In this document: piece after piece, positions 1,381-39,633 of the stretch
Layout: each line of letters begins with the position of its first letter
How positions within the stretch are numbered: position 1 is the first letter of the stretch
Source of the DNA: Arthrobacter gandavensis
GTDB lineage: Bacteria; Actinomycetota; Actinomycetes; Actinomycetales; Micrococcaceae
Assembly: GCF_009192735.1 (NCBI RefSeq)
Contig: NZ_VTFU01000001.1
Span: forward strand, 930,001-994,000
DNA: 64,000 nucleotides
Direction of reading: 5' to 3'
Notes under the pieces: model-generated
The model's input: only the letters and a program-made list of their open reading frames with translations
The model's database searches: none
Told to the model about the DNA's origin: nothing
Translations under genes and position numbers: made by a program

Positions 1381-4300
1381 CGGTTACCTCCAAGATTCGG
1401 GTCCATGCCTCGGCGCCGTCGGGGTCAAGACCCGCTTCGGCGGCGGAGGCGCGGGCATCCAGCACGGCCGCGTAGTCGCGCGGCAGCACTTTGGTCATGC
1501 GGCGGACAGTGGCATCGAAGTCTTCCAACAGGGAAGCAGCCAGGGCGGACTCAGTCTCCTCGACGTGCCGGATGAGCAGGCCGCGGACAATGTCGGCGTC
1601 CTCGGCATCCAGCGGTTCCAGCCGGAGTTCGCCCTTTTCGATCGAGTCCTTGTTCATGCGTTCGGGCGCCAGGTCCAGCAGATACGCGGTGCCGCCGGAC
1701 ATCCCCGCACCGAAGTTGCGTCCGGTGGGGCCCAGGATCAGGGCCTGCCCGCCGGTCATGTACTCGCACCCGTGGTCGCCGATGCCTTCGGCGACGGCGG
1801 TGGCTCCGGAGTTGCGGACCAGGAATCGTTCGCCCACCTGGCCGCGCAGGAACATTTCGCCGCTGGTGGCGCCGTAGCCAATCACGTTTCCGGCAATGAC
1901 GTTGCGTGCCGCGTCAAAGACGTTGGCGCGGTCCGGACGGACAATGATGCGGCCGCCGGAGAGGCCCTTGCCCACGTAGTCATTGGAGTCTCCGAGCAGG
2001 CGCAGCGTGATGCCGGCCGGCAGGAACGCGCCGAGCGACTGGCCGGCCTGGCCGGTGAGGGTCACGTCGATGGTGTCGGTGGCCAGGGTGTCGACGCCGA
2101 ACGTCTTGGTCACGGTGTGCCCGAGCATGGTGCCGACGGACCGGTCGGTGTTCACCACGTCCAGGGTGATGCGCACCGGGTTCCGGCTGGCCAGCGCGTC
2201 GGCGCTCATCTCGATCAGCTTGTTGTCGAAGTGCGACTCCAGGTCATGGTTCTGCGGCACCATGTTGCGCAGCGGCGCACCGGATTCGGCAACCTCGGAG
2301 CCGCGCAGCACGGGCTCCAGGTCCAGGCCGTCGGCCTTCCAGTGGTCGATGGCCGCTTTGGTGTCCAGCAGCTCCGTGCGGCCGATGGCCTCCTCGAGTG
2401 AGCGGAAGCCCAGCTCGGCGAGGATCTCGCGGACTTCCTCGGCCAGGAACTCGAAGAAGTTCACCACGAATTCAGGCTTGCCGGAGAAGCGTGCGCGCAG
2501 TTCAGGGTTCTGCGTCGCCACGCCCACCGGGCAGGTGTCCAGGTGGCACACGCGCATCATGATGCAGCCGGAGACGACCAGCGGAGCAGTGGCGAAACCG
2601 AACTCCTCGCCGCCGAGCAGCGCGGCAATGACGACGTCGCGCCCGGTCTTGAGCTGTCCGTCCACCTGCACCACCACGCGGTCGCGCAGGCCGTTGATCA
2701 TCAGTGTCTGCTGGGTCTCGGCCAGGCCGAGCTCCCACGGCGCGCCGGCATGCTTGAGCGAGTTCAGCGGCGAGGCGCCGGTGCCGCCGTCGTGCCCGGA
2801 CACGAGGACGACGTCGGCCTTGGCCTTGGTCACGCCCGCCGCCACGGTGCCGATTCCGGCCTCGGACACCAGCTTCACGTGGACCCGGGCGCTCGGGTTG
2901 GAGCGTTTGAGGTCGTAGATCAGCTGGGCGAGGTCCTCGATGGAGTAAATGTCATGGTGCGGAGGCGGGGAAATTAGCCCGACGCCGGGTGTCGAGTGAC
3001 GGGTGCGGGCCACCCACGGGTAGACCTTCTGCGCCATCAGCTGGCCGCCCTCGCCGGGCTTGGCGCCCTGGGCCATCTTGATCTGGATGTCATCGGCGTT
3101 GGTCAGGTACAGGCTGGTGACGCCAAAGCGTCCGGAGGCAACCTGCTTGATCGCTGAGCGGCGCTCGGGATCGAGCAGCCGTTCCACATCCTCGCCGCCC
3201 TCGCCGGTGTTGGACTTGCCGCCCAGCCGGTTCATCGCAATGGCAATGGTTTCGTGCGCCTCCTGGGAGATGGAGCCGTAGCTCATCGCGCCGGTGGAGA
3301 AACGCTTGACGATGCTGGAAACGGGCTCCACTTCATCGATGGGCACCGGAGTGCGGCCGGCGGTGTCGAACTCCAGCAGCCCGCGGAGAGTCATCAGTGA
3401 CTTGGACTGGTCATCCACGCCTGAGGTGTAGGCCTTGAAGATGTCATAGCGGCGTTCGCGGGTGGCGTGCTGAAGCCGGAAGACGGTCTCGGGGTTGAAC
3501 AGGTGCGGCGGGCCCTCCCGGCGCCACTGGTATTCCCCGCCGTTCTCCAGCGGCCGGTGCGGATCCTCGATTTCGTCGTCGGGGTAGGCGCTGGCGTGCC
3601 GGGCCGCGGCTTCGGCGGCTATGACGTCCAGACCGACGCCGCCGAGCTGGGACTGCGTGCCGTGGAAGAACTCGTCCACCAGTTCCTGGCCCAGGCCGAG
3701 GGCCTCGAAGGTCTGCGCTCCGCAGTAGGAGGCCACCGTGGAGATGCCCATCTTGGACATGATTTTCAGGACGCCCTTGCCCAGGCCCTTGATCAGGTTG
3801 GACACGGCCTCCTCGCGGCTGACGCCGGTGATGTCGCCGTTGCGGACCAGTTCCTCGCAGCTTTCCATGGCCAGGTACGGGTTGACCGCGGATGCGCCGT
3901 AGCCCATCAGGACCGCCACGTGGTGGACCTCGCGGACGTCGCCGGCTTCCACCAGCAGCGAGATCTTGGTGCGGTTGGCGCTCTTGAGCAGGTGGTGGTG
4001 CACGGCGGACAGCAGCAGCAGCGACGGGATGGGCGCCCACTGGGCGCTGGAATCACGGTCGGAGAGCACGATGTATTCGATGCCGCGGTTGACCGCGCCG
4101 GAGACCTTTTCGCAGATCTCGGCGATCCGGGCGCGCAGCTCGGATTCCCCGCCCTGGGGCCGGTACAGTCCGCGGACCTTCAGCGCGATCTTCTCGCCGT
4201 CGCTGTTGGTCAGCTTGGCGATCTTGGCCAGCTGGTCATTGGTGATGACCGGGAAGTTCAGTGCGATCTGGTGGTTGCGGACCTGGCCGGTGGCCAGCAG

Positions 4301-5962
4301 GTTGCCCACCGGTCCAATTGACGCGCGCATGGAGGTGACCAGTTCCTCGCGGATGGCGTCCAGCGGCGGGTTGGTGACCTGGGCGAAGGACTGCACGAAG
4401 TAGTCGAACAGCAGCCTCGGGCGCTGGGACAGCACCGCAATGGGGGTGTCCGAGCCCATGGCGCCGAGGGGCTCGGCGCCGGTGCGGGCCATCGGGCCGA
4501 GCAGGATGCGCAGTTCCTCCTGGGTGTAGCCGAAGGTCCGCTGGCGGCGGTTGATCGAGGCCTTGGTGTGCAGGACGTGTTCGCGTTCGGGCAGTTCCTC
4601 CAGGGACACCTGGTTTTCCCGGACCCAATCAGCCCACGGGTTCGCGGCGGCCATCTCTGCCTTGATCTCGGCATCCTCGATCAGGCGGCCGGCATCGGTG
4701 TCCACCAGGAACATCTTGCCGGGGGAAACGCGCCCCTTGCGGACCACCTTGGCCGGATCAATGTCCACCACGCCCACCTCGGAGGCCAGGACCACCAGGC
4801 CGTCCTCCATCACCCAGTAACGGGCCGGACGGAGGCCGTTGCGGTCCAGGACCGCACCCACCTGGGTGCCGTCGGTGAAGGAAACGGCGGCGGGCCCGTC
4901 CCACGGCTCCATGAGCATGGAGTGGTACTGGTAAAAGGCGCGGCGTGCCGGATCCATGGTGGCGTGGTTTTCCCAGGCCTCGGGGATCATCATCATGATC
5001 GCGTGCGTGATCGGCCGGCCGGAGAGCATCAGCAGCTCGGCAACCTCGTCGAAGGACGCCGAGTCGGAGGCACCCGGGGTGCAGATGGGAAACAGCTCTT
5101 CGGGGGTGTCGCCGAGCAGCGGGTTCTTCAGCTGGGACTGCCGGGCCCGCATCCAGTTCCGGTTGCCCTTGACCGTGTTGATTTCACCGTTGTGCGCAAT
5201 GGTGCGGAACGGCTGGGCCAGCGGCCAGGACGGGAAGGTGTTCGTGGAGAACCGCGAGTGGACAATGCCCAGCCGGGTCTTGAACCGGGGGTCGGAGAGG
5301 TCCGGGTAGAACGGCTCCAGCTGGGCGGTGGTGAGCATGCCCTTGTAGACCATGGTCTTGGAGGACAGCGAGGGGAAGTAGACGCCGAACTTATTCTGGG
5401 AACGCTTCCGGACGCGGAAGGCGCGGGCATCCAGGTCGGAGGCATCGCCGTCGGCCGGAGCAAGGAACACCTGGACGAAGTGCGGCATGCAGGCCCGGGA
5501 CATGGCGCCCACCAGGTCTGCGACGATTGGGACCTCACGCCAGCCCAGGACGGTGAGCCCTTCGGATTCGGCGATGGATTCCACGCCGGCGCGGGCGGTG
5601 TCCTGTTCCCGGCCCTCGGTGGGCAGGAACGCGGTGCCCACGGCGTAAGTGCCGGCGGCGGGCAGTTCGAAGGCGGTGACCGCGCGGAAGAATTCGTCGG
5701 GGACCTGGGTCAGCAGCCCGGCGCCGTCGCCGGTTCCTTCGTCGGCGCCCACGGCGCCCCGGTGTTCCAGGTTGCGCAGGGCGGTGAGGGCGGCGTCCAC
5801 GATGTCGTGTCCGGGTTCACCGCGCAGGGTGGCAATAACGGCCAGCCCGCAGGCATCTTTTTCGTTCTCGGCGCGGTACAGCCCGGTGTCCGCCGGAAAT
5901 GCGGCAAAGCGGGTGAACGGCGAGACAGCGGATGCTCCGCCGGGCGGAAACTGATCAGTCAT
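1373..5962 (-). CDS. gltB: glutamate synthase large subunit GltB
   Basis: Large (alpha) subunit of glutamate synthase (glutamine + 2-oxoglutarate to 2 glutamate), 1529 aa, the normal family length. Domain order: N-terminal class-II glutamine amidotransferase whose nucleophile is expected to be Cys38 in KDACGLA (a 37-residue propeptide would be cleaved), central domain, FMN/2-oxoglutarate domain, the 3Fe-4S motif C-x5-C-x4-C ([12 protein letters not shown]), and a C-terminal glycine-rich beta-helix. The frame is open further upstream, but MTDQF is preferred because it gives a usual propeptide and has GAAGGA upstream. Its stop overlaps the gltD start. It is the first gene of a gltBD pair behind a 189-bp gap after lgt. 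Confidence 0.96.
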
Positions 5963-6120
5963 GAGAGGTAAGTCCTTCCCCCTGATTGAGCGGTGGGAGG
6001 GGACAACGCTGGCCCCACGGCGGAAGGTAAAACGTTCCGCGGTGCTTAGTAATTCACCAAAAGGGTGTCCGGGGTTGTTCCTGGAATCCCTCAAGGGGCG
6101 GCCACTGCTACGTGGCGGAA

Positions 6121-6152
6121 GCACCCTCCCGGGAGGTAACCCGGCCGGGTGC
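6121..6152 (-). terminator. possible hairpin at the 3' end of lgt
   Basis: GCACCC (6121-6126) and GGGTGC (6147-6152) form an inverted repeat with an inner CTCCCGGGAG palindrome, directly at the lgt stop codon. No T-run follows, so it may only protect or pause the transcript. The rest of the lgt-gltB gap (down to 5963) holds a second short inverted repeat, GCGGAA/TTCCGC at about 6018-6038. I could not define the gltB promoter with confidence. Confidence 0.35.
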
Positions 6153-7192
6153 TACTTGGCAGTACCCGGTGTCCCGGGCTTGCGAGAATCGGTGTCCTCG
6201 TTTTTTGTCTCTGCGAGATTAGCACGCTGCTGTGACGCGGAAGACTCCGCGACGGAATTCCGCTGTTCTGTTTCGATCTTGTGATCTTCCGGTAACGTGC
6301 CCGTTTCCGCCGCCGGTTCGTGGCCGGGCAGGTAGAGGGACTCATTTCCGCCTTTTCGGGCGCGGAAAGTCAGGAAAATGAACATGGCCACAGAGAACAC
6401 GAGCAGCGCAACACTGGTCCAGACGTTCAGCCGCTGTGTGACGCCGAAGAGGGTAATCATTTCGGCGTCGTCGATGCGCAGGTTCTCGATCCACAGCCGG
6501 CCGAGGGTGTAGTAGGCGGCGTAAAGCCAGAACAGGCGTCCCCCGCGCAGCTTGAACCGTTTATCCAGTGCCAGCAGCAGTATGACGCCGGCGAGGCACC
6601 AGAGCGATTCATACAGGAAGGTGGGATGGAACAGCGTTCCGGGTGCTGTTCCACTGGGGAAGTTGGCGTTGTTGGCGTCGATTTCCAGTCCCCAGGGCCG
6701 GTCAGTGGGGCTGCCGAAAAGTTCCTGGTTGAACCAGTTGCCCCAGCGGCCCACCGCCTGAGCCAGCAGAAGCCCGGGAACGCCGGCGTCGGCGAAGGTG
6801 GAGAGCTTGATGCCCGCGCGCCGGCAGCCGATCCAGGCGCCCACGGCGCCAAGCGCCACGGCGCCCCAGATGCCCAGGCCGCCCCGCCAGATCTGCGGGA
6901 TCAGGGACAGGTCTCCGTTGACGCCGAAGTATGCGTCCGGGGACGAGATCACGTGATAGAGCCGGCCGCCGATGATGCCGAACGGAATGGCCCAGATGGC
7001 AATGTCCCAGACGGCCTCTTCGGGCAGTCCGCGGCGCTTCCACCGCACCGACGTCATCCACAGGGCGAGGATGATGCCGGCCAGGATGCACAGGGCATAG
7101 GTGTGGATGGTCAGGGGGCCCAGCGAGAAGCTGCTGAAGTCCGCGGGCGGGCTGGGAATGCTGGCCGGAGCCGTCACGGACATCAGGTTCAT
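6152..7192 (-). CDS. lgt: prolipoprotein diacylglyceryl transferase Lgt
   Basis: Membrane enzyme that moves a diacylglyceryl group from phosphatidylglycerol to the lipobox cysteine of prelipoproteins. The protein (346 aa) has about seven hydrophobic segments, the GGRLYHV motif, RGGLGIWG, and the family signature GRWGNWFNQELFG near residue 170. A hydrophilic tail of about 60 residues after the last membrane segment is common in actinobacterial homologues. The ATG overlaps the trpA stop (TAATG), pointing to coupled translation at the end of the trp operon; an in-frame ATG three codons later is an alternative start. The trp-lgt link is a known actinobacterial arrangement with no obvious functional reason. 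Confidence 0.96.
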   Translation of the reverse strand: MNLMSVTAPASIPSPPADFSSFSLGPLTIHTYALCILAGIILALWMTSVRWKRRGLPEEAVWDIAIWAIPFGIIGGRLYHVISSPDAYFGVNGDLSLIPQIWRGGLGIWGAVALGAVGAWIGCRRAGIKLSTFADAGVPGLLLAQAVGRWGNWFNQELFGSPTDRPWGLEIDANNANFPSGTAPGTLFHPTFLYESLWCLAGVILLLALDKRFKLRGGRLFWLYAAYYTLGRLWIENLRIDDAEMITLFGVTQRLNVWTSVALLVFSVAMFIFLTFRARKGGNESLYLPGHEPAAETGTLPEDHKIETEQRNSVAESSASQQRANLAETKNEDTDSRKPGTPGTAK

Positions 7193-8025
7193 TAAATGCT
7201 CTTTCGGGTTCCGGTGCTGAGTTCACGGGTGAGTTCGGCGACGGCGGGGACTCCGCCGTCGCGCAGTGCGGCCACCAGCGCCGTGCCAACGATCACGCCG
7301 TCGGCGTACGCGCCGATTTCGCGGACGTGGCCGGAGTTCGAGACACCCAGGCCAACGCAGACGCGCTGGGCACCGGCCGCGCGGGCTGCTGAGACAACAT
7401 CCTTGGCCGCGGTGCTCACCGAAGTGCGGGCGCCGGTAACGCCCATGATGGACACCGCGTAGACAAAGCCGCGGCTGGCCGCGACGGTGCTCTTCATGCG
7501 TTCGGGGGTCGAGGACGGAGCCACCAGGAACACCCGGTCCAGGCCGTACTTATCCGAAGCCTCCATCCATTCCGAGGCTTCATCGGGAATGAGGTCGGGA
7601 GTGATCAGGCCCGCTCCCCCGGCCTCGGCCAGGCGGCGGGAGAATTCCTCCACGCCCATCCGGACCACGGGGTTCCAGTAGGTCATGACCAGCACGGCGG
7701 CGTCGGTGGCGGCGGTAATGCCGGCGACGACGTCAAACACCTCGGACACGCGGAAGCCCTGCGACAGGGCCTGCGTGGTGGCAGCCTGGATGACGTGCCC
7801 GTCCATGACCGGATCGGAATACGGGATGCCGATTTCAATGAGGTCGGCACCGTTCCGCGCGAGTGCGATCCCGGCGTCGATGGTCTCCTGGACGGAGGGG
7901 TACCCGGCGGGCAGGTAGCCAATCAGCGCGGCGCGGCCGTCGGCGGCGGCGCGGTCAATGGCTGCGGCAGCCTTGCTGCGGGAGTTTGTTCCCGCGCCGG
8001 ACGTGTCGTGAACGGCGGTGCTCAC
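7192..8025 (-). CDS. trpA: tryptophan synthase alpha chain TrpA
   Basis: Cleaves indole-3-glycerol phosphate to indole and glyceraldehyde 3-phosphate and works as an alpha2beta2 complex with TrpB. TIM-barrel protein of 277 aa with the active-site block [15 protein letters not shown] (catalytic Glu and Asp) and the phosphate-binding region GVTGAR...GLGVSN near the C-terminus. The start is GTG, overlapping the trpB stop as GTGA with AGAGGGAGA upstream; the open frame extends 21 codons further but that stretch overlaps trpB and is not conserved-looking. Confidence 0.96.
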
Positions 8026-9437
8026 AGCTGTTCTCCCTCTTTGGCGATTTCGGCTTCGGCGGACTTGTCGTCCAGCAGGTTGAACCATTCGGCGGCGGTG
8101 GCAACGTCCTTGTCACCGCGGCCGGAGAGGTTCACCAGCACGATCTTGTCCGAGACATCCGCAGTGCCTGCGGCGGCGGCCTCGTCAGCGAGCCGCCGGC
8201 CAACCTTGATGGCTCCGGCGAGGGCGTGTGCGGATTCGATGGCCGGGATGATGCCCTCGGTGCGGCACAGCAGCTGGAAGGCGTCCATGGCTTCGGTGTC
8301 GGTGACGGGTTCGTAGGAGACCCGCCCAATGTCCGAGAGGTAGGAGTGCTCGGGGCCGACGCCCGGGTAGTCCAGGCCGGCGGAGATGGAGTGCGATTCC
8401 ACGGTCTGGCCGTCTTCGTCCTGCATCAGGTAGGACCGGGCGCCGTGCAGCACGCCGGGCCTTCCCAGCGTGATGGTGGCCGCGTGGCGGCCGGTGTCCA
8501 CGCCGTCGCCGCCGGCCTCAAAGCCATAGATCTTGACCTCGGGATCGTCCAGGAAGCCGTGGAAGATGCCAATGGCGTTGGAGCCTCCGCCGATGCAGGC
8601 ACACACGGCGTCGGGCAGCCGGCCGGTCTGTTCCAGCATCTGCGCCCGTGCTTCATCGCCGATGACCTCGTGGAAGAAGCGGACCATGGCCGGGAACGGA
8701 TGTGCTCCGGCGGCGGTGCCGAGCAGGTAGTGGGTGTTGTCCACGTTGGCCACCCAGTCCCGCAGAGCCTCGTTGATGGCGTCCTTCAGGGTCTGGGAGC
8801 CGTGTGTCACGGGAATGACGGTGGCGCCAAGCAGTTCCATCCGGGCAACGTTCAGAGCCTGCCGCCGGCAGTCCTCGGCTCCCATGTAGACCACGCATTC
8901 CAGGCCCAGCAGGGCAGCGGCGGTGGCGCTGGCGACGCCGTGCTGGCCGGCTCCGGTTTCGGCGATGACCCGTGTCTTCCCCATGCGCTTGGCCAGGAGG
9001 GCCTGTCCGAGGACGTTGTTGATCTTGTGCGAACCGGTGTGGTTCAGGTCTTCGCGCTTGAGGAAAATCCGGACTCCGCCGGCATGCTCGGCGAAGCGCT
9101 TGGCCTCGGTCAGCAGGGAGGGACGGCCGGAGTAATTCTTGTTCAGGTCAGCGATCTGGGCGCGGAACTCCGGGTCGGCCTTGGCCTTCTCGAAGGTGTC
9201 TTCCAGCTCATCCAGTGCAGCAATCAGGGATTCGGGCATCCATCGTCCGCCGTACTCGCCAAAGTACGGTCCGGGAGCATGGCGCAGTGAACCGTGGGTA
9301 TTCAGGAACGCGTCGGCCACCTCCTCGGTGACGGCATTCGCCGCGGCACGCTCTGCAGCGTCCGTCGGGGCGGTGGATGCGTCGGTGGACGTGGGTGCAG
9401 CAGCTGCTGCGCCTGTCTGTTCCGGATTCCCGGTCAT
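8022..9437 (-). CDS. trpB: tryptophan synthase beta chain TrpB
   Basis: PLP enzyme that condenses indole with serine to tryptophan. It has the PLP-lysine motif [17 protein letters not shown], and the glycine-rich phosphate-binding loop [10 protein letters not shown]. At 471 aa it is about 50 residues longer than typical TrpB, because of an Ala/Thr-rich N-terminal extension before the conserved [23 protein letters not shown] lies 8-12 nt before the ATG. A later start inside the low-complexity extension cannot be ruled out. It lies 68 bp after trpC and overlaps trpA by 4 nt. Confidence 0.96.
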
Positions 9438-9505
9438 GGGGCTGGTTCCTGTCCTGCTTTGGTCCGGGCGGCGGGCCGCCCGGACAGGGAATTGTTGCGT
9501 TTGTG

Positions 9506-10336
9506 TCAGCCTTTGCCGTGTGCGCGCGCGGCCAGCGCGTCACTGCCGGTCCGCATGAACTCGGCGATGGTCGCTGCGGGGTCGTCGTGGCGCACCAGGG
9601 CTTCACCCACGAGGACGGCGTTGGCGCCTTCCGAAGCGTACTGTTCAACGTCGGCGGCGCCGCGGACACCCGATTCGGCCACCATGACGGCCCCGGCGGG
9701 GATGCTGCCGGCCAGGGATGCGAAGACGGACCGGTCAACGTCCAGGGTTTTCAGGTTGCGCACGTTCACGCCGATGATCTTCGCGCCAACTGCCACGGCG
9801 CGCTCGACTTCTTCGGCGGTGTGCGTTTCCACGAGCGCGTTCATGCCCAGTTCATGGGTGAGCGCCAGGAAGTCTTTCAGCCGGGCGTCGTCCAGGGCTG
9901 CCACGATCAGCAGCACCAGGTCGGCGCCGTGGGCCCGGGCTTCCCAGATCTGGTACTCATCGACGGTGAAGTCCTTGCGCAGCAGCGGGATGTTTACTGC
10001 TTTACGGACGGCATCGAAGTCCGCCAGAGAACCGCCAAAGCGCCGCTGCTCGGTGAGCACGCTGATGACCGCGGCACCGCCCGCCTCGTAGCTGGCGGCC
10101 AAGGCTGCCGGGTCGGTGATGTCGGCGAGGGCACCCTTGGAAGGGCTGCTGCGCTTGACCTCGGCGATGACCTTCAGCTGCGTGCGCGGAGCGTCATTTC
10201 CGCCCAGAGCGGCAAAGGCGTCCAGCGCGGGAGCCGCCGCACGGGCGCGTTCCCGCATCTGGTCCAGCGGAACCGTGCGCCGGCGTGCCTCGAGATCTTC
10301 GGCAACACCGGCGACGATGTCATCCAGAACGCTCAT
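9506..10336 (-). CDS. trpC: indole-3-glycerol phosphate synthase TrpC
   Basis: Ring closure of CdRP to indole-3-glycerol phosphate, 276 aa TIM barrel. Visible family motifs in order: [12 protein letters not shown] (catalytic Lys), LRKDF, LVETHT, GVNVRNL, and AESGV with the phosphate-binding end. Monofunctional, as usual in actinobacteria (no fused TrpF; no trpF or trpD occurs in the window). The ATG directly abuts the TAA of the upstream HGxxPAAW gene (TAAATG), so the two are co-translated. Confidence 0.96.
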
Positions 10337-25948: not shown

Positions 25949-27589
25949 ATGCTAATCACGCGGTTCTGCCGTCCTGCCCACAACCACATTCCTGCTGCCG
26001 TTCCCGTCCCGCTGCGGGACCGGAACGGGCCCCTGAAAATAGCTTTGATCACCGAAGGCACCTATCCGGTCGTGACGGGAGGGGTCAGCACCTGGTGCGA
26101 CCAGCTGATTTCCGGAATGCCCCACCACGATTTCGAGGTGGTCGCCCTGACCGGAAGCGGCACGGACGCACCGGTCTGGAAGTTACCCGAAAACGTACGC
26201 TCGCTTCGAACCGTCCCGGTCTGGGGCCCACCGGCCTCCCCTCTTCGCCCCGGAGCCCGGCGCCGGGAATGGGTGGACCGCACCCAGGCCGACCTGACCC
26301 TGCTGTGGGACGCCGCCCTCGGTTCCGACGACGCAGACCCGGTGGGCCGGACAACCACCGCGCTGCGGAATCTGGTGACGATCAGCAACCGCATCGGCTT
26401 GGCCCACTCGCTGGCTACCCGCGGCTCAGTGGCGCCTATCCTGGCCGCATGGAACCGGCACCTGGTCAGCTCCGGCGAGTCGCCCATGTCGGTGGCTGAC
26501 GCGGTGATGGCGGCCAGCATTGTGGACCGAGCACTTGCCCTGGTGGACCAGCGTCCGGCCGGCGCGGATGTCATCCACGCCTCCAGCAACGGCCCGTCCT
26601 CCCTGATTGCGCTGGCCCACTCCTGGCGGCATGGCACCCCCATTCTCCTGACCGAACACGGCGTCTACCTGCGCGAACGGTATCTGGCCCTGCATGGCGC
26701 CAACTTCTCCTGGCCGGTGCGCCGGGCGGTCACGGCATTCCTGCGCCGGCTGTGCCAAGTGGTGGTTGCGAACGCCCACATGGTCCTGCCGGTCAATCAG
26801 TTCAACGCCCGCTGGGAGCGTCGCCTTGGCGCCCTCCCCGAACGCATCCACACCATCTCCAACGGCGTGGACCCGGACAAGTTCCAACCCATCACCACGG
26901 AGCCGGACCTGCCCACCATCAGCTTTGTGGGCCGCATCGACCCGTTGAAGGACCTTGAGACCCTGATCTCGGCCTTTGCTCTCGTCCGCCGCCAGGTACC
27001 CAACGCTCAGCTGCGGCTCTTCGGGCCCACCCCCACGGAAAACCACGCCTATAAGCAGGGCGTCGTGGAGCTGGCCGAAACCCTCGGCGTCACTGACGCA
27101 GTGCATTGGGAAGGCCCCAGCAAGGGCAGCCGTCCGGCCATTGAGGCCGGACACGTGGTGGCACTGTCCAGCGTGTCCGAGGGACTGCCCTTTACCCTCA
27201 TCGAATCCATGATGTGCGGCCGCGCCACCGTCAACACCGACGTCGGCGGCGTGGCGGAGTGCCTGGATGAGGACCGGACCACGGGCATGCTGGTGCCGGC
27301 ACGGGACCCGGCCGCATTCGCCGAAGCCTGCATCACGCTGCTTTCCGATGACCGCCTGCGGGCCGACATGGGCGCCGCAGCACGGCGTCGCGCCCTCGCG
27401 GAATTCACCCTGGAGCGCTGTCTGACCCGGTACCGTGACGCCTATGCAGCAGCCCGGGATGGGCGGCTGTTCGAGCACCCGCCGGCAGCCGGCCTACGGC
27501 CCGCAGAGGACACCGGCGGCACCGGCGCCCATCCTGAACCGCATTTTCACAGTGTCCCCGCCAATAAATCCCTGAGGTTGTCCGCATGA
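25949..27589 (+). CDS. PelF-family GT4 glycosyltransferase
   Basis: 546-aa GT-B enzyme of the PelF type. The N-terminal domain opens IALITEGTYPVVTGGVSTWCDQLI (residues 31-54), the diagnostic PelF block with the Gly-Gly-Val-Ser loop; then TEHGVYLRERYLAL (235-248), the linker FVGRIDPLKDLETLI, and the GT4 EX7E pair E411/E419 in SEGLPFTLIE. In Pseudomonas, PelF is the cytosolic polymerase of the cationic GalNAc-rich Pel exopolysaccharide using UDP-sugars. Here it is the first of four genes joined by 4-nt overlaps. GAGG sits 7 nt before the ATG. The roughly 28-residue N-terminal extension and the last 45 residues are poorly conserved. Confidence 0.9.
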   Translation: MLITRFCRPAHNHIPAAVPVPLRDRNGPLKIALITEGTYPVVTGGVSTWCDQLISGMPHHDFEVVALTGSGTDAPVWKLPENVRSLRTVPVWGPPASPLRPGARRREWVDRTQADLTLLWDAALGSDDADPVGRTTTALRNLVTISNRIGLAHSLATRGSVAPILAAWNRHLVSSGESPMSVADAVMAASIVDRALALVDQRPAGADVIHASSNGPSSLIALAHSWRHGTPILLTEHGVYLRERYLALHGANFSWPVRRAVTAFLRRLCQVVVANAHMVLPVNQFNARWERRLGALPERIHTISNGVDPDKFQPITTEPDLPTISFVGRIDPLKDLETLISAFALVRRQVPNAQLRLFGPTPTENHAYKQGVVELAETLGVTDAVHWEGPSKGSRPAIEAGHVVALSSVSEGLPFTLIESMMCGRATVNTDVGGVAECLDEDRTTGMLVPARDPAAFAEACITLLSDDRLRADMGAAARRRALAEFTLERCLTRYRDAYAAARDGRLFEHPPAAGLRPAEDTGGTGAHPEPHFHSVPANKSLRLSA

Positions 27590-28917
27590 GCGCCGATAGT
27601 GTCATGGTGCCCGCTGCGGGTGCTGCCGTTCCTCACCTCAAGAACAACTTGGTGGCTTACGACGCCGTGGACACCTTTGAAATTACCGCCAGACTGGAGG
27701 CTTCCGGCCTCAGCGACCGCACCGTCCGCCAGCGTCACGGTGCCAGGGATGTGTTCGACTACGCCCAGTCCCTGACCCAGGTGCGCGGCGAGACCCAACC
27801 CACCAGCGAGCTCCAGGGCTGGCTCGGACGCGGGGCACTGTTGGAGTCTGTCCGGCGCGGCATCATCCTGATACTCGGCGCAGTGCTGGGCGGCCTCACC
27901 GCCACGGTCTTGGCTGCCAGCACCCGGGAGGTTCTCGTTGCCGGTATTGGGGCGTGGATCATTGGGCAGTCCATCTCTGGAATTGTCTGGACCCATGCGG
28001 GCACCGGACACCTGAAACTCGGTATTGCCCGCGGCACCGGAGCCACGGCCCTGGTGATGGCGGTCCTGGCCTGCTTTGTGGGGGTGTCCCTGCTTCTTCC
28101 CGCTCACGACGCAACCCTGGCCGGCCTGCTGATGGTCTGGTGCTGGTACTCCTGCGTGGTGTCCATGCTGCTGATCCTGGGCCGCTCCTGGTTCCTCCTT
28201 ACGGTTCTCGCCTGTGGAGTGGCCATTGTGACGGTGACCCTTGCGCTCAGGGACAGCTCCGCCGGGCTCATTGTGCCCGGGACCGCATTGCTGGTGATCG
28301 CCGCAGCAACGGCAGTGTTCGCCTTCCATCTTCGTCCCATCAAGGAAAGCCTGCGGCCCCGGAGGGAAGACGGCCGGGCCGCCGTCTTTCCCGCGGCGCA
28401 GGCGGGCTTCCTTGCCGCAGCGCTGACCCTGGCCCTGACCCGGCTGCCGGCCTGGGAGGGCACTGCACTGGTCGCCGCCACAGTGGTGGCCGCCGCTGCC
28501 ACCGATCCAGCCCTGATGCTGATGCGCCAAAGGCTTCAGTGGTCCTCCCACCGCACGCCGCTGCTGCGGCGCGCGGCATGGAACGCCTGGCTGCTGACCA
28601 TGTCCATCTCGTCCACCATTGTGGTGATCTCCGCCGGGGTTTCGTCCCTGGTGGTCATCTTCCTGGTGGAGGACAGCAAGGTGGCCACCACAGTGGTGGT
28701 GGCCGCGGCCTTCAGCGCCCTGGCCACCACATCCACTGCCCTGAGCGCGTTCGGACTGCCGCACCGGGGCGTCATTTTTGCCGCGGCGGCCTGCCTCGCG
28801 GCGGTGTCGTGGCTGCTCGTCGGAAACTTTGCCGGCCTCCTGGTGGAAGCATCGTTCCTGGTGGCGGGATTACTGGCGCTGCTGGCGCTGGTGGCCGATC
28901 CGAGGACCTACGCGTGA
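27586..28917 (+). CDS. multi-spanning membrane protein, candidate PelG-like partner
   Basis: 443 aa. A soluble N-terminal region of about 90 residues carries VDTFEITARLEASGLSDRTVRQRHGARDVF; about 12 hydrophobic segments follow (from about residue 90 to 435), with a basic loop after the sixth (HLRPIKESLRPRRED). PelG of the Pel system is also a roughly 12-TM inner-membrane protein needed for export, so position and topology suggest an analogous role; I do not recognise true PelG sequence motifs, so this is inference. The start overlaps pelF as ATGA and the stop overlaps the next gene as GTGA, indicating tight translational coupling. Confidence 0.7.
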   Translation: MSADSVMVPAAGAAVPHLKNNLVAYDAVDTFEITARLEASGLSDRTVRQRHGARDVFDYAQSLTQVRGETQPTSELQGWLGRGALLESVRRGIILILGAVLGGLTATVLAASTREVLVAGIGAWIIGQSISGIVWTHAGTGHLKLGIARGTGATALVMAVLACFVGVSLLLPAHDATLAGLLMVWCWYSCVVSMLLILGRSWFLLTVLACGVAIVTVTLALRDSSAGLIVPGTALLVIAAATAVFAFHLRPIKESLRPRREDGRAAVFPAAQAGFLAAALTLALTRLPAWEGTALVAATVVAAAATDPALMLMRQRLQWSSHRTPLLRRAAWNAWLLTMSISSTIVVISAGVSSLVVIFLVEDSKVATTVVVAAAFSALATTSTALSAFGLPHRGVIFAAAACLAAVSWLLVGNFAGLLVEASFLVAGLLALLALVADPRTYA

Positions 28918-29600
28918 AGGCACCCCAACTGGCTCTGCCCTGGTACATCCATCCCGCCGAAGGCACCCGGGAATGGGAGTGGCTTGCCGGACAGAACGTG
29001 TCCTTCGCCGTTATCAACGTGCACAACGGGCCGGGCGGAGACCGCGATCCCTACTACCCGGACGCAGTGGCCGGCCTGGGGCAGACCCGGTTGATCGGGT
29101 ATGTCCCGGTCCACTATGGGCGGCGGTCCCCGGCGGACGTGGTCCGGGACATCCGGGCATGGCAGCGGATGTACCGGCTGGACGGCATCATGCTGGATGA
29201 GCTTCCGTCCGGCGAGGACAGCCTGCGCGTGTGCAGCGAGTACGCGGCGTCCGCCCGGGCATCAGGCATCCGCTTCCTGGCTGCGAACCCCGGCGTGTTT
29301 CCGACGGCGGATCACGTGCGGCTGTTCAATGTCACCTGCGTGTTTGAAGGAACCGCCGCGGACTACGACGGTTTCCGGCATCCGGCCTGGGCACAAAACG
29401 TCCCGCCGGCCCGCCTGTGGCATCTGGTGCACAGCAGCGATCCGGCCCGGCTCAGCCAACTCCGGCTGGCTGCCGGCCACCGCGGCGCCGGACATGCGTA
29501 CGTCACGGACCGATTCATGCCAAACCCGTGGCTCGGCCCCCCGTCCGGCGTGTCTGCCGCTTTGGCCTCCGCTCCTCCGGCTGCACCGGCTGCACCATGA
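28914..29600 (+). CDS. spherulin-4-like (GH114-related) protein
   Basis: 228 aa, GTG start overlapping the membrane-protein stop. The sequence LALPWYIHPAEGTREWEWLAG, INVHNGPGGDRDPYY, IGYVPVHYGRR, DIRAWQRMYRLDGIMLDELPSG and ANPGVF fit the spherulation-specific family 4, a TIM-barrel family related to GH114 polygalactosaminidases. The acidic residues in IMLDELPSG are at the usual active-site strand. No signal peptide is visible, unlike the next gene, so it may act inside the cell or leave by another route. The Ala/Pro-rich C-terminus is probably disordered. Role proposed: hydrolysis or trimming of the PelF product (inference). Confidence 0.78.
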   Translation: MKAPQLALPWYIHPAEGTREWEWLAGQNVSFAVINVHNGPGGDRDPYYPDAVAGLGQTRLIGYVPVHYGRRSPADVVRDIRAWQRMYRLDGIMLDELPSGEDSLRVCSEYAASARASGIRFLAANPGVFPTADHVRLFNVTCVFEGTAADYDGFRHPAWAQNVPPARLWHLVHSSDPARLSQLRLAAGHRGAGHAYVTDRFMPNPWLGPPSGVSAALASAPPAAPAAP

Positions 29601-30466
29601 GTCGGATCCGACTGATGCTGGCCGTCGTCCTGATGGTTACCGCGGCCATGGCCGGATGCACGGGGGCAACCCACGGCGGTACCCCCGCCGCCCCGGCCGC
29701 GTCCGCCGCCCCACCCACATCCGGCTCCACGCCAGCCGCCGCAGCGCAACCCACTGTCCGGCCCGAACCCTTGTGGGCCCCCGCCCCCGGGGAGGGTTGG
29801 CAGTGGCAACTGACCGGCGATCTTGACCTCGACGTCGATGTGCCCGTCTACGATGTCGATTTCGAGACCACCTCCGCCGCCGACGTTGCCGCCCTGAAGC
29901 AACAGGACCGGGGGGTGATCTGCTACCTGTCCGCTGGATCCTGGGAGGACTTCCGCGGTGATGCCGAAGCGTTCCCGGAAACTGTCCTGGGCAAGGAACT
30001 GGCTGGCTGGCCGGACGAGCGGTGGCTGGACATCCGCCGGCTGGACCTGCTCCTGCCGATCATGGCCGCACGAATGGACACGTGCGTGGCCAAGGGCTTT
30101 GACGCCGTCGAACCGGACAATGTGGACGGTTACCGCAATGCCTCCGGTTTTCCCCTCACGCCCGATGACCAGCTCGCCTATAACCGGGCCATAGCGGCGC
30201 TGGCCCATGAGCGCGGACTGTCAGTGGGCCTGAAAAACGACCTCGAACAGATTCAGCAGTTGGCCGGGAACTTTGATTTTGCCGTGAACGAGGAATGCGT
30301 CCGGTACGGGGAATGCGACCGCTATCTGCCCTTCACCCAAGCGGGCAAGGCAGTGCTGCACGTGGAGTATGAAGGCCCCCTGGACTTCTGCGACGCCTCT
30401 GCGGGCCTCGGGCTCTCCTCGATGCTCAAACCACTGGATTTGGGAGTGGACCGGCAGGCCTGCTGA
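29597..30466 (+). CDS. GH114-like endo-alpha-1,4-polygalactosaminidase lipoprotein
   Basis: 289 aa with a lipoprotein signal: hydrophobic IRLMLAVVLMVTAAMAGC, lipobox MAGC with Cys21, then a Pro/Ala/Ser-rich linker to about residue 55. The GH114 domain follows: WQWQL, DVPVYDVDFET, GVICYLSAGSWED, DEPL-like WLDIRRLDLLLPIM, the acidic active-site strand KGFDAVEPDNVDGY, GLKNDLEQI and NEECVRYGECDRY. The family cleaves alpha-1,4-galactosaminoglycans such as Pel. Anchored outside the cell, it could trim or release polymer, as PelA does in Gram-negatives. ATGA overlap with the upstream gene. No deacetylase domain is present. Confidence 0.87.
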   Translation: MSRIRLMLAVVLMVTAAMAGCTGATHGGTPAAPAASAAPPTSGSTPAAAAQPTVRPEPLWAPAPGEGWQWQLTGDLDLDVDVPVYDVDFETTSAADVAALKQQDRGVICYLSAGSWEDFRGDAEAFPETVLGKELAGWPDERWLDIRRLDLLLPIMAARMDTCVAKGFDAVEPDNVDGYRNASGFPLTPDDQLAYNRAIAALAHERGLSVGLKNDLEQIQQLAGNFDFAVNEECVRYGECDRYLPFTQAGKAVLHVEYEGPLDFCDASAGLGLSSMLKPLDLGVDRQAC

Positions 30467-30539: not shown

Positions 30540-30842
30540 ATGTACGTAGTGGTTAACACTCTGGAAGTTGGCCCAGAAACCGCCGAGGCTTTCGAAAAGG
30601 CCTTTATCGACAGCATGGCCAACCTTGAGGGCGTACCGGGTCTGGGCCGCAGTACGCTGATGCGTCCCGAGGGTAAGAGCAACACCTATCTTTCCACCAT
30701 GGAGTTCGATTCCAAGGAAAGCTTTTTCGCATGGCTGAAGTCGGATTCCTTCAAAGCATCGCACTCGGACGATCAGGCGCCGGGAATGCAGGCACCCAAC
30801 GCGGTTGCGTCCTACACCGTCATCAAGGACACCGCGGCTTAA
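30540..30842 (+). CDS. IsdG/HmoA-type heme-degrading monooxygenase (ABM domain)
   Basis: 100-aa dimeric ferredoxin-like fold of the antibiotic-biosynthesis-monooxygenase family. It starts MYVVVNTLEV and has LEGVPGLGRSTLMRPEG and SFFAWLKSDSFKASHS. The residues that form the Asn-Trp-His catalytic triad in IsdG-type enzymes are all at the right spacing: N6, W65, H75. This points to iron release from heme rather than a generic ABM protein. Strong ribosome site GAAAGGA 7 nt before the ATG. It has its own promoter with an operator-like repeat in the spacer, consistent with iron or heme control (inference). Confidence 0.85.
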   Translation: MYVVVNTLEVGPETAEAFEKAFIDSMANLEGVPGLGRSTLMRPEGKSNTYLSTMEFDSKESFFAWLKSDSFKASHSDDQAPGMQAPNAVASYTVIKDTAA

Positions 30843-35633: not shown

Positions 35634-37019
35634 ATGGCAGGTGCGGATGCCGGCCCGGCCGGTCACGGAAGACTTTTGGCCGTAGCCGTCCTGGCATCCT
35701 TTGTGGCGTTCCTGGACGGCTCCATCGTCACAGTGGCCCTGCCCTCCATCAGCGCGGATCTGGGCGGCGGACTGTCCACTCAGCAGTGGACCGTGAACGC
35801 CTACCTGCTCACGCTGGGCACCCTGATCCTGCTGGCGGGGTCCCTCTCGGATTCCTTCGGACGGCTGAGGATCCTCCGCATCGGGCTGATCGGGTTTGCC
35901 GCCGCATCTGTTGCCTGCGCCCTGGCCTGGAACCCCGGCTTCCTGATCCTGGCCCGCGCCGTCCAGGGAACGACAGCGGCACTCCTGGTGCCGAGCTCAC
36001 TGGCCCTGATCACGACGGCGTACCGGGAGCCGGGACTGTCCCGCGCCATTGGCCGGTGGACCGCATGGACCGGAACAGCCGCCATCATTGGTCCACTGCT
36101 GGGCGGTGTCCTGGTGGACTTAGTCAGCTGGCGGCTGATCTTCGCAGTGAATGTGCTGCCGGTGGCTCTCACTTTGTTCCTGATGGCGGGGATGCAGGAC
36201 CGTCAGGCGCAGCGGAAAGCCGCCCTCGATCTGCCCGGGGCGCTGCTGGCCGTCGCGGGACTCGCCGGACCGGTGTATGCCCTGATCGAACAGGACCGCC
36301 TCGGCTGGTCCCATCCCGCCGTCGCCGTTCCCCTCGCTGCGGGGTTCCTGGCGCTCGGGCTCTTCGTTCTCCGCGAGTCCCGCGCGCCCGCACCCATGAT
36401 GCCGCTGTCCCTGTTCCGCGCCCGCAACTTCCGCTACGGAAACCTGGTAACCGCAGCCGCCTATGCGGGCATCTCGCTGGGGACATTTTCGGTCACCGTC
36501 TTTATCCAGGAAACGGGTGGATTTTCCGCTACGGAGGCCGGACTTGCCGCTCTTCCCCTGCCGGTGGTGATGCTGCTGCTCGCGGCACAGTTTGGAAAGC
36601 TGGCCGGCCTTTACGGACCCCGGCTGTTCATGACTGCGGGACCGCTTATTTGCGGCGCGGGTTTCGCGCTCATGCTCGCGGTGAGCCCGACGCTGGACTT
36701 CCTCACACAGATGCTGCCCGGCCTGCTGGTGTTCAGCGTGGGGCTGGCAGTCATGGTGGCCCCGCTAACCTCGGCCGTCCTTGGTTCGCTTCGCCCGGAG
36801 GAGGCCGGGATCGGTTCGGCGGTCAACAACGCCGTATCGCGGGTGGCCGGTCTGGTGGCAATTGCCATGGCCGGCACGATTTCCGGCGGGTCCCTGGATT
36901 TCCCCGGCTTTCACCGCACCGTGCTGGCCACGGCAGTTTTGTTCGCCGCCGCGGGACTCATCGCGTTCGTCGGGATCCGCACCCAGCCCAGCCAGGTCAG
37001 CGGTGCAGATGCTCCCTGA
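35634..37019 (+). CDS. MFS drug:H+ antiporter (DHA2/EmrB-QacA type)
   Basis: 461-aa exporter, about 14 hydrophobic segments. DHA2 hallmarks: FLDGSIVTVALPSISADLG in the first helix, SLSDSFGRLRILR (motif A), and RAVQGTTAALLVPSSLALITTAY (motif C-like region), then GPLLGGVLVDLVSWRLIFAVNV. Excellent ribosome site AGGAGG 7 nt before the ATG. It ends tail-to-tail with the UvrA-like gene, with 23 bp of overlap; both families occur in drug self-resistance, so the pairing is suggestive. Confidence 0.9.
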   Translation: MAGADAGPAGHGRLLAVAVLASFVAFLDGSIVTVALPSISADLGGGLSTQQWTVNAYLLTLGTLILLAGSLSDSFGRLRILRIGLIGFAAASVACALAWNPGFLILARAVQGTTAALLVPSSLALITTAYREPGLSRAIGRWTAWTGTAAIIGPLLGGVLVDLVSWRLIFAVNVLPVALTLFLMAGMQDRQAQRKAALDLPGALLAVAGLAGPVYALIEQDRLGWSHPAVAVPLAAGFLALGLFVLRESRAPAPMMPLSLFRARNFRYGNLVTAAAYAGISLGTFSVTVFIQETGGFSATEAGLAALPLPVVMLLLAAQFGKLAGLYGPRLFMTAGPLICGAGFALMLAVSPTLDFLTQMLPGLLVFSVGLAVMVAPLTSAVLGSLRPEEAGIGSAVNNAVSRVAGLVAIAMAGTISGGSLDFPGFHRTVLATAVLFAAAGLIAFVGIRTQPSQVSGADAP

Positions 37020-39525
37020 GATAGCGGCCGGTGCTGCTGGCAGGATTCCCGGCGACGTCGTCGGGCGTACCGGTCGCGATAATCCGCCCGCCGGCCGCAC
37101 CCCCGCCCGGACCCACGTCAATGACGTGATCGGCATTGGCGATCAGGTCCAGGTCATGTTCGATCACCACAATCGTGGCTCCCTTGGCCAGGAGCCGGTC
37201 CAGCACGCCGATCAGCACCCGGGTGTCCAGGGGGTGCAGCCCGACAGTGGGTTCATCCAGGACAAACAGCGTGCCGGACTGGTCCCGGCCCAGTTCCCCG
37301 GCGAGCTTGAGGCGTTGGGCTTCCCCGCCGGAGAGGGCCGGAGTGTCCTCCCCCAGGGTCAGGTACCCAAGTCCAAGGTCGATGAGGGTCTGCAGTTTCC
37401 GGCGTGCCTTGGGCAGCGCGGCCAGGGCCTCCCGCGCTTCGCGCACGGTCAGGGCGAGCAGTCCCGGCAGCGGGAAATCTCCTTTCGCTGTGGGGAGGAC
37501 GACGGCGTCGGCTGCCGGGGCGTAGCGCGACCCGCCACAGTCGGGGCAGGGGATGTCGACGTCGGGCAGGAACTGCACGTCCAGGACCACCTGCCCCGTT
37601 CCCTCGCAGCGCGGGCAGCGCAGGGATCCGGTGTTGTAGGAGAAGTCGCCCGCCTTCAGCCGGCGCTCCTTCGCGGTTTCGGTGGCAGCATAGGCCCGGC
37701 GCAGGTCATCCAGGATGCCGGAGTAGGTGGCAACCGTGGAGCGGATGTTCACTCCGATGGGCGTTGCATCCACCACATCCACCCGGGACAGGCCGGCGGG
37801 ATCAACCGACAGCACGTGTGCCGGCAGTGCCGTGTCGTGTTCCACCGCTTTAATGGCCGGCACGAGGCTTTCCAGGACGAGAGTGGTTTTCCCCGATCCA
37901 GACATACCAGTGACCGCGGTGAGCCGCCCTTTCGGGATGACGACGTCGAGGGAGTGGACGGTGTGCAGCTGAGATGTCGCCAGGTGGATGGCGCCGAGGT
38001 CGAAGAGACTCCCGCCGCCGGCGCGTTTGCGCACCAGAACGTCCGTGGCGTTGCCGCCAAGGAAGGGGGCAATCAATGAACCCGGAGTGGCCGTCACCTG
38101 GGCTATGGTGCCTTGGGCGATGATGGACCCGCCCTCGGCTCCGGAGCCGGGACCCAGTTCGATCATCCAGTCCGCTTCGCGCAGCACCTGCACGTCGTGG
38201 TCGACCAGCACCACTGAGTTTCCGCCGTCGAGCAGATCACGCATCACCCCGAGTAGCCCGTCCACATTGACGGGATGAAGGCCGATGGAGGGCTCGTCGA
38301 GGACGTACAGCACCCCGGTGGTTTCATTGCGCACCGCCCGGGCCAGCTGCACCCGCTGCCGCTCCCCCGTGGACAGGGTAGAGCCGGCCCGGTCCAGGCT
38401 GAGGTAACCCAGGCCCAGCTGGATGAGGCGGCGGGCCATGTCCTCGAACTGCGTAATAAGCATGCGTGCCATGGAGCGCATGTCCCCGGGCAGCCGGCCA
38501 GGAATTGTTGGCACCCAGGCGAGCGCCTCATCCAGCGTTTTTGCCGACGCTTCCGCCAGATTGATGCCGTCCAGCTGTGTCCCGAGTGCCTTTGGCGAAA
38601 GCCGTGTGCCGCCGCAGGCGGGGCATGTCTGCGCAATGGTGAAGCGCGAAACGCGCGCCAGGCCCTTCTCGCTCGTGGCGTTGTTCAGAGCTTCCCGCAC
38701 CGCCAGGCGGGCATTGCGGTAGGTGAAGTTCAGCTCGAAGAGTTTGCCGCTCTTTGATGGCACGCTGATGTGCCGCTTTTCCTCCGGCCCCTCCATCACG
38801 ATGTGCTTCTCCTCCGCCGTGAGCTCGGAGTACTGCACATCGGTCCGCACGCCGAATTCCGCCACGACCTGCGGCATGACCGTCAGTCCGAACATGCCCC
38901 AGGGCGCCACCGCGCCGTCGTTAATGGTTTTGGAGGGGTCCGGGACCAGGGCGGCGTCGTTCACATCGCGGACGGTGCCGGTGCCCCCGCACCTGGGACA
39001 GGCGCCGTCGGAATTGAAGGCCAGGGACTCAGCGCCGGGCGGACGGAACGCCGCGCCGCACTCGGGGCATACCAGCTCCCTGTCGGCGGCAACGTCGATG
39101 GTCGGGGGCAGCCGGTGGCCGTTGGGACACAAATGCGAGCCGAGCCGGGAGAACATCACGCGCAGCACGTTCAGCAACTCGGTGGACGTACCGAAGGTGG
39201 AGCGGACCCCCGGCACCCCGGGCCGCTGGCGCAGGGCGAGTGCGGCGGGAACATGGCAGACGGAATCCACCGATGCACGGGCGGCGTGCGACATCCGGCG
39301 GCGGGTATAGGTGGAGAGCGCCTCAATGTACCGGCGCGACCCCTCGGCATACAGCACACCCATGGCGAGTGAGGACTTCCCGGACCCGGACACCCCCGCG
39401 ACGGCCACCAGCCGATCAAGGGGGACGTCGGCGTCGATCTCCTTCAGGTTGTGGACCCGGGCTCCGCGGATCTGAACCGCACCCGGTGCATGAGTGCGTT
39501 CTCGGACGGGCGTTGGTTCGACCAT
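36997..39525 (-). CDS. class II UvrA-like ABC ATPase (drug-resistance type)
   Basis: 842-aa tandem ABC protein of the UvrA family. First P-loop [11 protein letters not shown] near residue 35, zinc fingers CPECG...CPRCGG and CPRCEG...CPDCGG, signature loops [14 protein letters not shown] and [14 protein letters not shown], second P-loop [10 protein letters not shown]. At about 840 residues it is over 100 shorter than canonical UvrA, as in the class II proteins (such as DrrC) tied to resistance against DNA-binding drugs and lacking the UvrB-contact insert. MVEPTPV is chosen as start for GGGAG 6 nt upstream. Confidence 0.88.
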
Positions 39526-39633
39526 GGATTCTCCCTGCTGCCTCATGCCTCATGCCGCGGCGAACGGCACCGGGGCGTGTTTCCACGCTACCCCGGGGTT
39601 TGAGGGGACGCCCGCGGTATATCCTCTTTTGCC

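Follow-up and report, generated by a model that had tools for sequence, protein, structure and literature searches.

The 64,000-nucleotide stretch of Arthrobacter gandavensis analysed here (contig NZ_VTFU01000001.1, positions 930,001 to 994,000; the whole stretch is referred to as the window) carries at positions 25949-30466 an operon of four genes for a PelF-type polysaccharide synthase, a membrane partner and two glycoside hydrolases. In window coordinates, its features are:

25949..27589, + strand: gene 1, PelF-family GT4 glycosyltransferase, predicted cytosolic synthase (NF038011, PF11997, GGVS loop, E411/E419)
27586..28917, + strand: gene 2, 12-helix membrane partner with the fold of the multidrug/oligosaccharidyl-lipid/polysaccharide (MOP) superfamily, predicted polymer translocase (AlphaFold2, Foldseek, VIA-align)
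28914..29600, + strand: gene 3, GH135/spherulin-4 (Sph3-like) endo-alpha-1,4-N-acetylgalactosaminidase family protein, no signal peptide (PF12138, Sph3 5c5g profile)
29597..30466, + strand: gene 4, GH114 (Ega3-like) endo-alpha-1,4-galactosaminidase family lipoprotein (PF03537, Ega3 6oj1)

The stop and start codons overlap at all three junctions, with ATGA at 27586-27589 (genes 1/2), GTGA at 28914-28917 (genes 2/3) and ATGA at 29597-29600 (genes 3/4). An earlier reading of the DNA (the original prediction) had described these four overlapping open reading frames (ORFs) as a reduced Pel-like galactosaminoglycan system, and the frames and their junctions were found exactly as described. Rfam detected no RNA family in the operon region, and sigma-70 and terminator scans found neither a promoter match nor a terminator-like site on the strand of the operon.

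Gene 1 exceeded the cut-off of the NCBIfam PelF equivalog model NF038011 (166.8 bits, cut-off 100) and matched DUF3492 (PF11997) with 152.5 bits. The loop G44-G45-V46-S47 and residues E411 and E419, which had been picked out before, proved invariant in nine out of nine close homologues from its PelF clade. The start codon in relatives of gene 1 is the equivalent of L30 (window 26036), and the first 29 residues may be untranslated.

Gene 3 matched Spherulin4 (PF12138) with 96.5 bits, and its GH135 family profile matched the Sph3 structure 5c5g with an E-value of 1e-26. D95, E96 and E145 align with D166, E167 and E222 of Sph3. PMC12054363 describes the catalytic Asp/Glu pair of Sph3 and gives the aspartate as Asp196; the residues equivalent to D166 and E222 are kept in 76 of the 78 actinobacterial GH135 sequences examined. 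The column of E167 is more variable: Glu occupies it in Kytococcus and in all seven Arthrobacter loci without the deacetylase Agd3 (see below), whereas nearly all others have Gln, Arg or Cys. The residue in this column tracks the deacetylase loss along one branch. A pseudo-enzyme, as the Gln, Arg or Cys outside the Arthrobacter clade might suggest, was rejected because only two of the actinobacterial sequences lack the intact catalytic pair. A hydrophobic leader was absent in 74 out of 74 GH135 homologues, even with all in-frame starts as far as 90 residues upstream taken into account, whereas 51 of 64 GH114 proteins had one by the same crude criterion. Since none of these homologues has a possible secretion leader, GH135 is predicted to be cytosolic with its catalytic pair kept, and no description of this leaderless state was found in the literature. 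One GH135 domain was seen outside any PelF operon, in a 627-residue ORF (L046, 7526-9409) with a predicted hydrophobic N-terminal segment and the aligned pattern D-D-E.

Gene 4 matched GH114 (PF03537) with 281 bits and its closest relative in the PDB is Ega3 of Aspergillus fumigatus (6oj1, E 1e-49). By alignment, D174 and E232 form its catalytic pair; a signal is present with the lipobox MAG-C21. The hidden Markov model (HMM) searches with NF038011, PF12138 and PF03537 were in agreement with the families first proposed for genes 1, 3 and 4, and the leader and lipobox check with the proposal that one hydrolase has a signal and the other has none.

The neighbourhood was compared in an order-level sample of 248 genomes and a family sample of 120 genomes. 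Spherulin4 was found in nine and DUF3492 in 22 genomes of the order sample, and a PelF-type gene lay within ~6 kb of Spherulin4 in eight of the nine positive genomes, which is more than chance. Gene 2 was carried by only three of the 120 genomes of the family sample. A collection scan with the PelF-clade alignment yielded at least 80 loci, a best-scoring rather than a random sample. The best 80 are mostly from Actinomycetota and cover dozens of genera, plus a Meiothermus metagenome-assembled genome (MAG); among the loci listed are Arthrobacter, Blastococcus, Dietzia, Dermacoccus, Kytococcus, Kineosporia, Dactylosporangium, Actinomadura, Lentzea and many Streptomyces. Neighbours were counted in the 66 loci that had enough flank. 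The gene-2 family lay beside PelF in all 66, GH135 and an Agd3-like CE18 protein in 60 each, GH114 in 56 and all four in 48. A distance cut-off applies to these counts, by which L085 was scored as Agd3-less though its genome has Agd3. Conservation of the neighbourhood in relatives was hence upheld for the gene-2 family, GH135 and GH114. Within 6 kb of PelF, a gene of the short-chain dehydrogenase/reductase (SDR) or epimerase type was present in 43 of 81 loci and a nucleotidyltransferase gene in 40 of 81; a second SDR gene is also present in many relatives' loci.

Some loci differed from this layout. L175 (Streptomyces, G645 contig C10, ~4127-9651 of the locus) is a second, divergent trio of PelF, gene-2 family and GH135, and neither Agd3 nor GH114 was matched within 16 kb. 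L053, L054 and L055 belong to a related PelF clade and each contain GH114 and two separate Agd3-like ORFs, while GH135 is absent and any match to gene 2 is very weak. PelF is also accompanied by Agd3-like genes in L094 and L100, where one contig comes from a Meiothermus MAG and the other bears the label Melainabacteria; this reflects either spread beyond Actinomycetota or mis-binning.

The large secreted protein adjoining most relatives' operons is Agd3-like. A first profile (A1) was swamped by FN3/Ig tails matching titin and the core alignment A7 was used instead, which matched the Agd3 structure 6nwz with an E-value of 1.9e-11. The significant stretch comprises the CBM87 part running into the DD metal motif; further histidine motifs align only in insignificant stretches. 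Pfam recognised Agd3_CE in 13 and CBM87_Agd3 in 10 of 25 single members (best E ~5e-7), and a phmmer search of the PDB with one bacterial Agd3-like sequence failed to find Agd3, returning chance matches only. No Agd3-type match was detected in the operon or in six whole Arthrobacter-type genomes (G000, G117, G057, G639, G640 and G641), while the Blastococcus and Streptomyces controls were positive, and Pfam found no deacetylase domain in the four operon proteins. In the PelF tree, the loci of Arthrobacter and Micrococcaceae group as a single clade (SH-aLRT 100) within a broader set of Agd3-bearing loci, and the GH135 tree agrees on the Arthrobacter clade with a support of 98; both are quick trees without bootstrap. 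Given this nesting, a single secondary loss of Agd3 in the Arthrobacter lineage, with GH114 kept, is the most economical reading of the sequences. L042 is a separate Agd3-less locus that also lacks GH114. For the Agd3-less arrangement of the Arthrobacter/Micrococcaceae clade, no description was found in the literature.

Gene 2 had no match in Pfam or NCBIfam, and there was no credible Pfam match among 43 homologues. The AlphaFold2 model (pLDDT 87.4, pTM 0.80) contains 12 long membrane-type helices, as expected for the 12-transmembrane partner first proposed. With this model, the top 35 rows of Foldseek were MATE, WzxE or MurJ proteins of the MOP superfamily, judged by titles, and the best was a MATE protein with an E-value of 2e-4. 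VIA-align of residues 74-443 gave a Z of ~21 to MATE over 344-359 residues, 15-17 to WzxE and 10-15 to MurJ. A viral fold library gave nothing useful. The N-terminus is a conserved helical segment of cytosolic type with ~70 residues. Its motif VDxxEIAAxLEAxG...YGxxDVFxLA was almost confined to the gene-2 family in a 16-genome search, with the exceptions of the second Streptomyces locus, a weak match in G039 and a match in G141. The membrane family has no Pfam model and no description of it was found in the literature.

PelG is regarded as a MOP-type exporter. An assignment of gene 2 as PelG was nevertheless rejected, as the Pfam, NCBIfam, PDB-profile and hhalign searches all remained without a match: PelG (PF16933) matched neither gene 2 nor 42 homologues, hhalign of the gene-2 family against PelG gave a probability of 0.2% and the PDB-profile search gave no link. 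No PelG match was found in the window genome either, while a canonical PelG from the same order (L051) scored 451 bits as a control. Because the model has a MOP fold and the sequence shows no similarity to PelG, gene 2 plausibly works like PelG while not being PelG by sequence, as the polymer translocase that does the job of PelG in Pel.

These results also bear on the descent of the operon. Gene 1 as a PelF equivalog and the predicted fold shared by gene 2 and PelG would suit a reduced Pel operon, in which PelF and a divergent PelG were left after the loss of PelA, PelD and PelE. The missing similarity to PelG in the gene-2 family argues against it, as do the long branches that separate the PelF clade of gene 1 from the canonical Pel PelF of L051 and the Agd3-type neighbours of the clade. 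A search for PelD (PF16963) found nothing in any of the genomes covered, the controls included, so that it lacks a positive control. Descent from Pel is therefore considered unlikely. From the original prediction, the PelF-type synthase, the polytopic partner, the cytosolic and lipid-anchored hydrolases and the conserved operon stand, while membership in Pel does not. What is missing is better read as Agd3 than as PelA, PelD and PelE, with an Agd3-containing operon of the galactosaminogalactan (GAG) type as the parent.

We thus interpret the operon as an Agd3-less, Arthrobacter-lineage version of an actinobacterial GAG-type exopolysaccharide system, with a probability of about 0.72. The PelF-type GT4 would polymerise alpha-1,4-linked N-acetylgalactosamine (GalNAc), possibly together with galactose, from UDP-sugars at the cytosolic face. 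The MOP-fold partner would pass the growing chain across the membrane, possibly docked via the conserved N-terminal helical segment. The signal-less GH135 would stay inside and cut fully acetylated chain that is stalled or accumulating in the cytosol, and the lipid-anchored GH114 would cut the chain outside the cell. In most relatives, the secreted Agd3-like CE18 enzyme would deacetylate the polymer; as Agd3 is gone here, the product would be neutral poly-GalNAc or would be deacetylated by an unlinked enzyme. The substrate of Sph3 is fully acetylated GAG and that of Ega3 is deacetylated stretches (PMC12054363, PMC7229062), and by analogy a cytosolic GH135 and an extracellular GH114 would fit the acetylation state expected on each side of the membrane.

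Several points weigh against this interpretation. The MOP assignment of gene 2 consists of a predicted model and structural matches at a root-mean-square deviation of 4-5 Å. No epimerase or nucleotide-sugar gene is present in the Arthrobacter operons. GH114/Ega3 is reported to prefer deacetylated galactosamine, and it is odd that GH114 was kept without Agd3, unless a different deacetylase is at work. Two CE4-type matches are present in the window genome, both unlinked on other contigs (C6 and C7), and none in G641; replacement by another deacetylase is thus possible for some genomes, but it is not evident for all. The gene identities, their conservation, the locations predicted from sequence, the MOP fold of the model and the lack of an Agd3-type match are shown here, whereas we infer the polymer chemistry, the direction of transport, the enzyme activities and the role of each hydrolase. 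A more far-reaching proposal is tentative and would sooner be expected to fail than to hold: actinobacterial poly-GalNAc synthesis may depend on intracellular GH135 trimming the acetylated chain at the PelF-MOP pair, and in Micrococcaceae this core may have been streamlined to four genes whose exported polymer is neutral and for the most part acetylated, whereas Pel and GAG are cationic and deacetylated.

The same genes could also make a galactosamine-containing wall polysaccharide that is attached to the cell and is not a free exopolysaccharide. The GH114 lipoprotein is predicted to be retained at the membrane and galactosamine-containing wall polysaccharides have been noted in Streptomyces (PMC7229062), but the operon shows no gene for a wall ligase or a lipid carrier and the closest characterised counterparts, GAG and Pel, are secreted; a wall polymer is a little less likely still than a reduced Pel operon. 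It is very improbable that the hydrolases serve scavenging of or defence against foreign GAG or Pel polymers while the synthase makes something else, because GH135 lacks a secretion leader in all 74 homologues tested, both enzymes are translationally coupled and conserved beside the synthase and the operon has no sugar-uptake genes, even though enzymes of both hydrolase families are active on GAG-type polymers (PMC12054363) and actinobacteria encounter fungi in soil.

Two further features were observed downstream. A small ORF on the same strand (window 30541-30842), resembling an antibiotic-biosynthesis monooxygenase by eye, begins 74 bases past the GH114 stop. At 35634-39546, an ORF for a transporter of the major facilitator superfamily type meets an opposite-strand ORF of 849 residues that resembles a UvrA-type protein.

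Pel and GAG are cationic biofilm polymers that owe their stickiness to deacetylation. A natural lineage with the synthase, the translocase and both galactosaminidases but no Agd3 offers a direct test of the purpose of deacetylation and of each hydrolase. The operon also provides a small two-protein synthase/translocase pair for biochemistry and a membrane family new to Pfam, and its wide spread in actinobacteria bears on the proposed bacterial origin of the fungal GAG cluster.

Among known systems, the Agd3-containing bacterial operons reported by Bamford et al. 2020 (PMC7229062) are similar, as they encode a cytoplasmic glycosyltransferase, a multi-spanning membrane protein, GH114 and, in some Actinobacteria, spherulin-4, all of which are present here. 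The kind of operon was therefore already known, the label of a reduced Pel operon fits only in part, and the original remark that no description of the set was known holds only for its Agd3-less arrangement. Unlike those operons, the window operon and genome have no Agd3 (CE18/CBM87) match and the locus has no SDR or nucleotidyltransferase genes. The GAG cluster of A. fumigatus (uge3, gtb3, agd3, sph3, ega3) likewise places homologues of GH135 (Sph3) and GH114 (Ega3) beside the polymer synthase; here, however, the synthase and the membrane part are separate genes and the operon contains neither epimerase nor deacetylase. In A. fumigatus, Sph3 has been described as a membrane-bound protein whose role is extracellular (PMC12054363), in contrast to the GH135 protein without a signal. 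Pel systems (pelABCDEFG in Pseudomonas, pelDEA(DA)FG in Gram-positives) share the PelF-family GT4 and a polytopic partner of the MOP fold, but this partner is not PelG by sequence, the hydrolases are GH135 and GH114 instead of GH166 and no PelA-type deacetylase gene, PelD or PelE was recognised in the window operon. The fusion of hydrolase and deacetylase in PelA, formerly taken as typical of known Pel systems, is not universal, as the two parts are encoded by different genes, PelA(DA) and PelA(H), in the Pel loci of Gram-positives (PMC7112168). The operon is close to Pel in its synthase and exporter fold but not Pel by its defining parts, and is best filed as an actinobacterial GAG-type operon without Agd3, the counterpart of the fungal GAG cluster.

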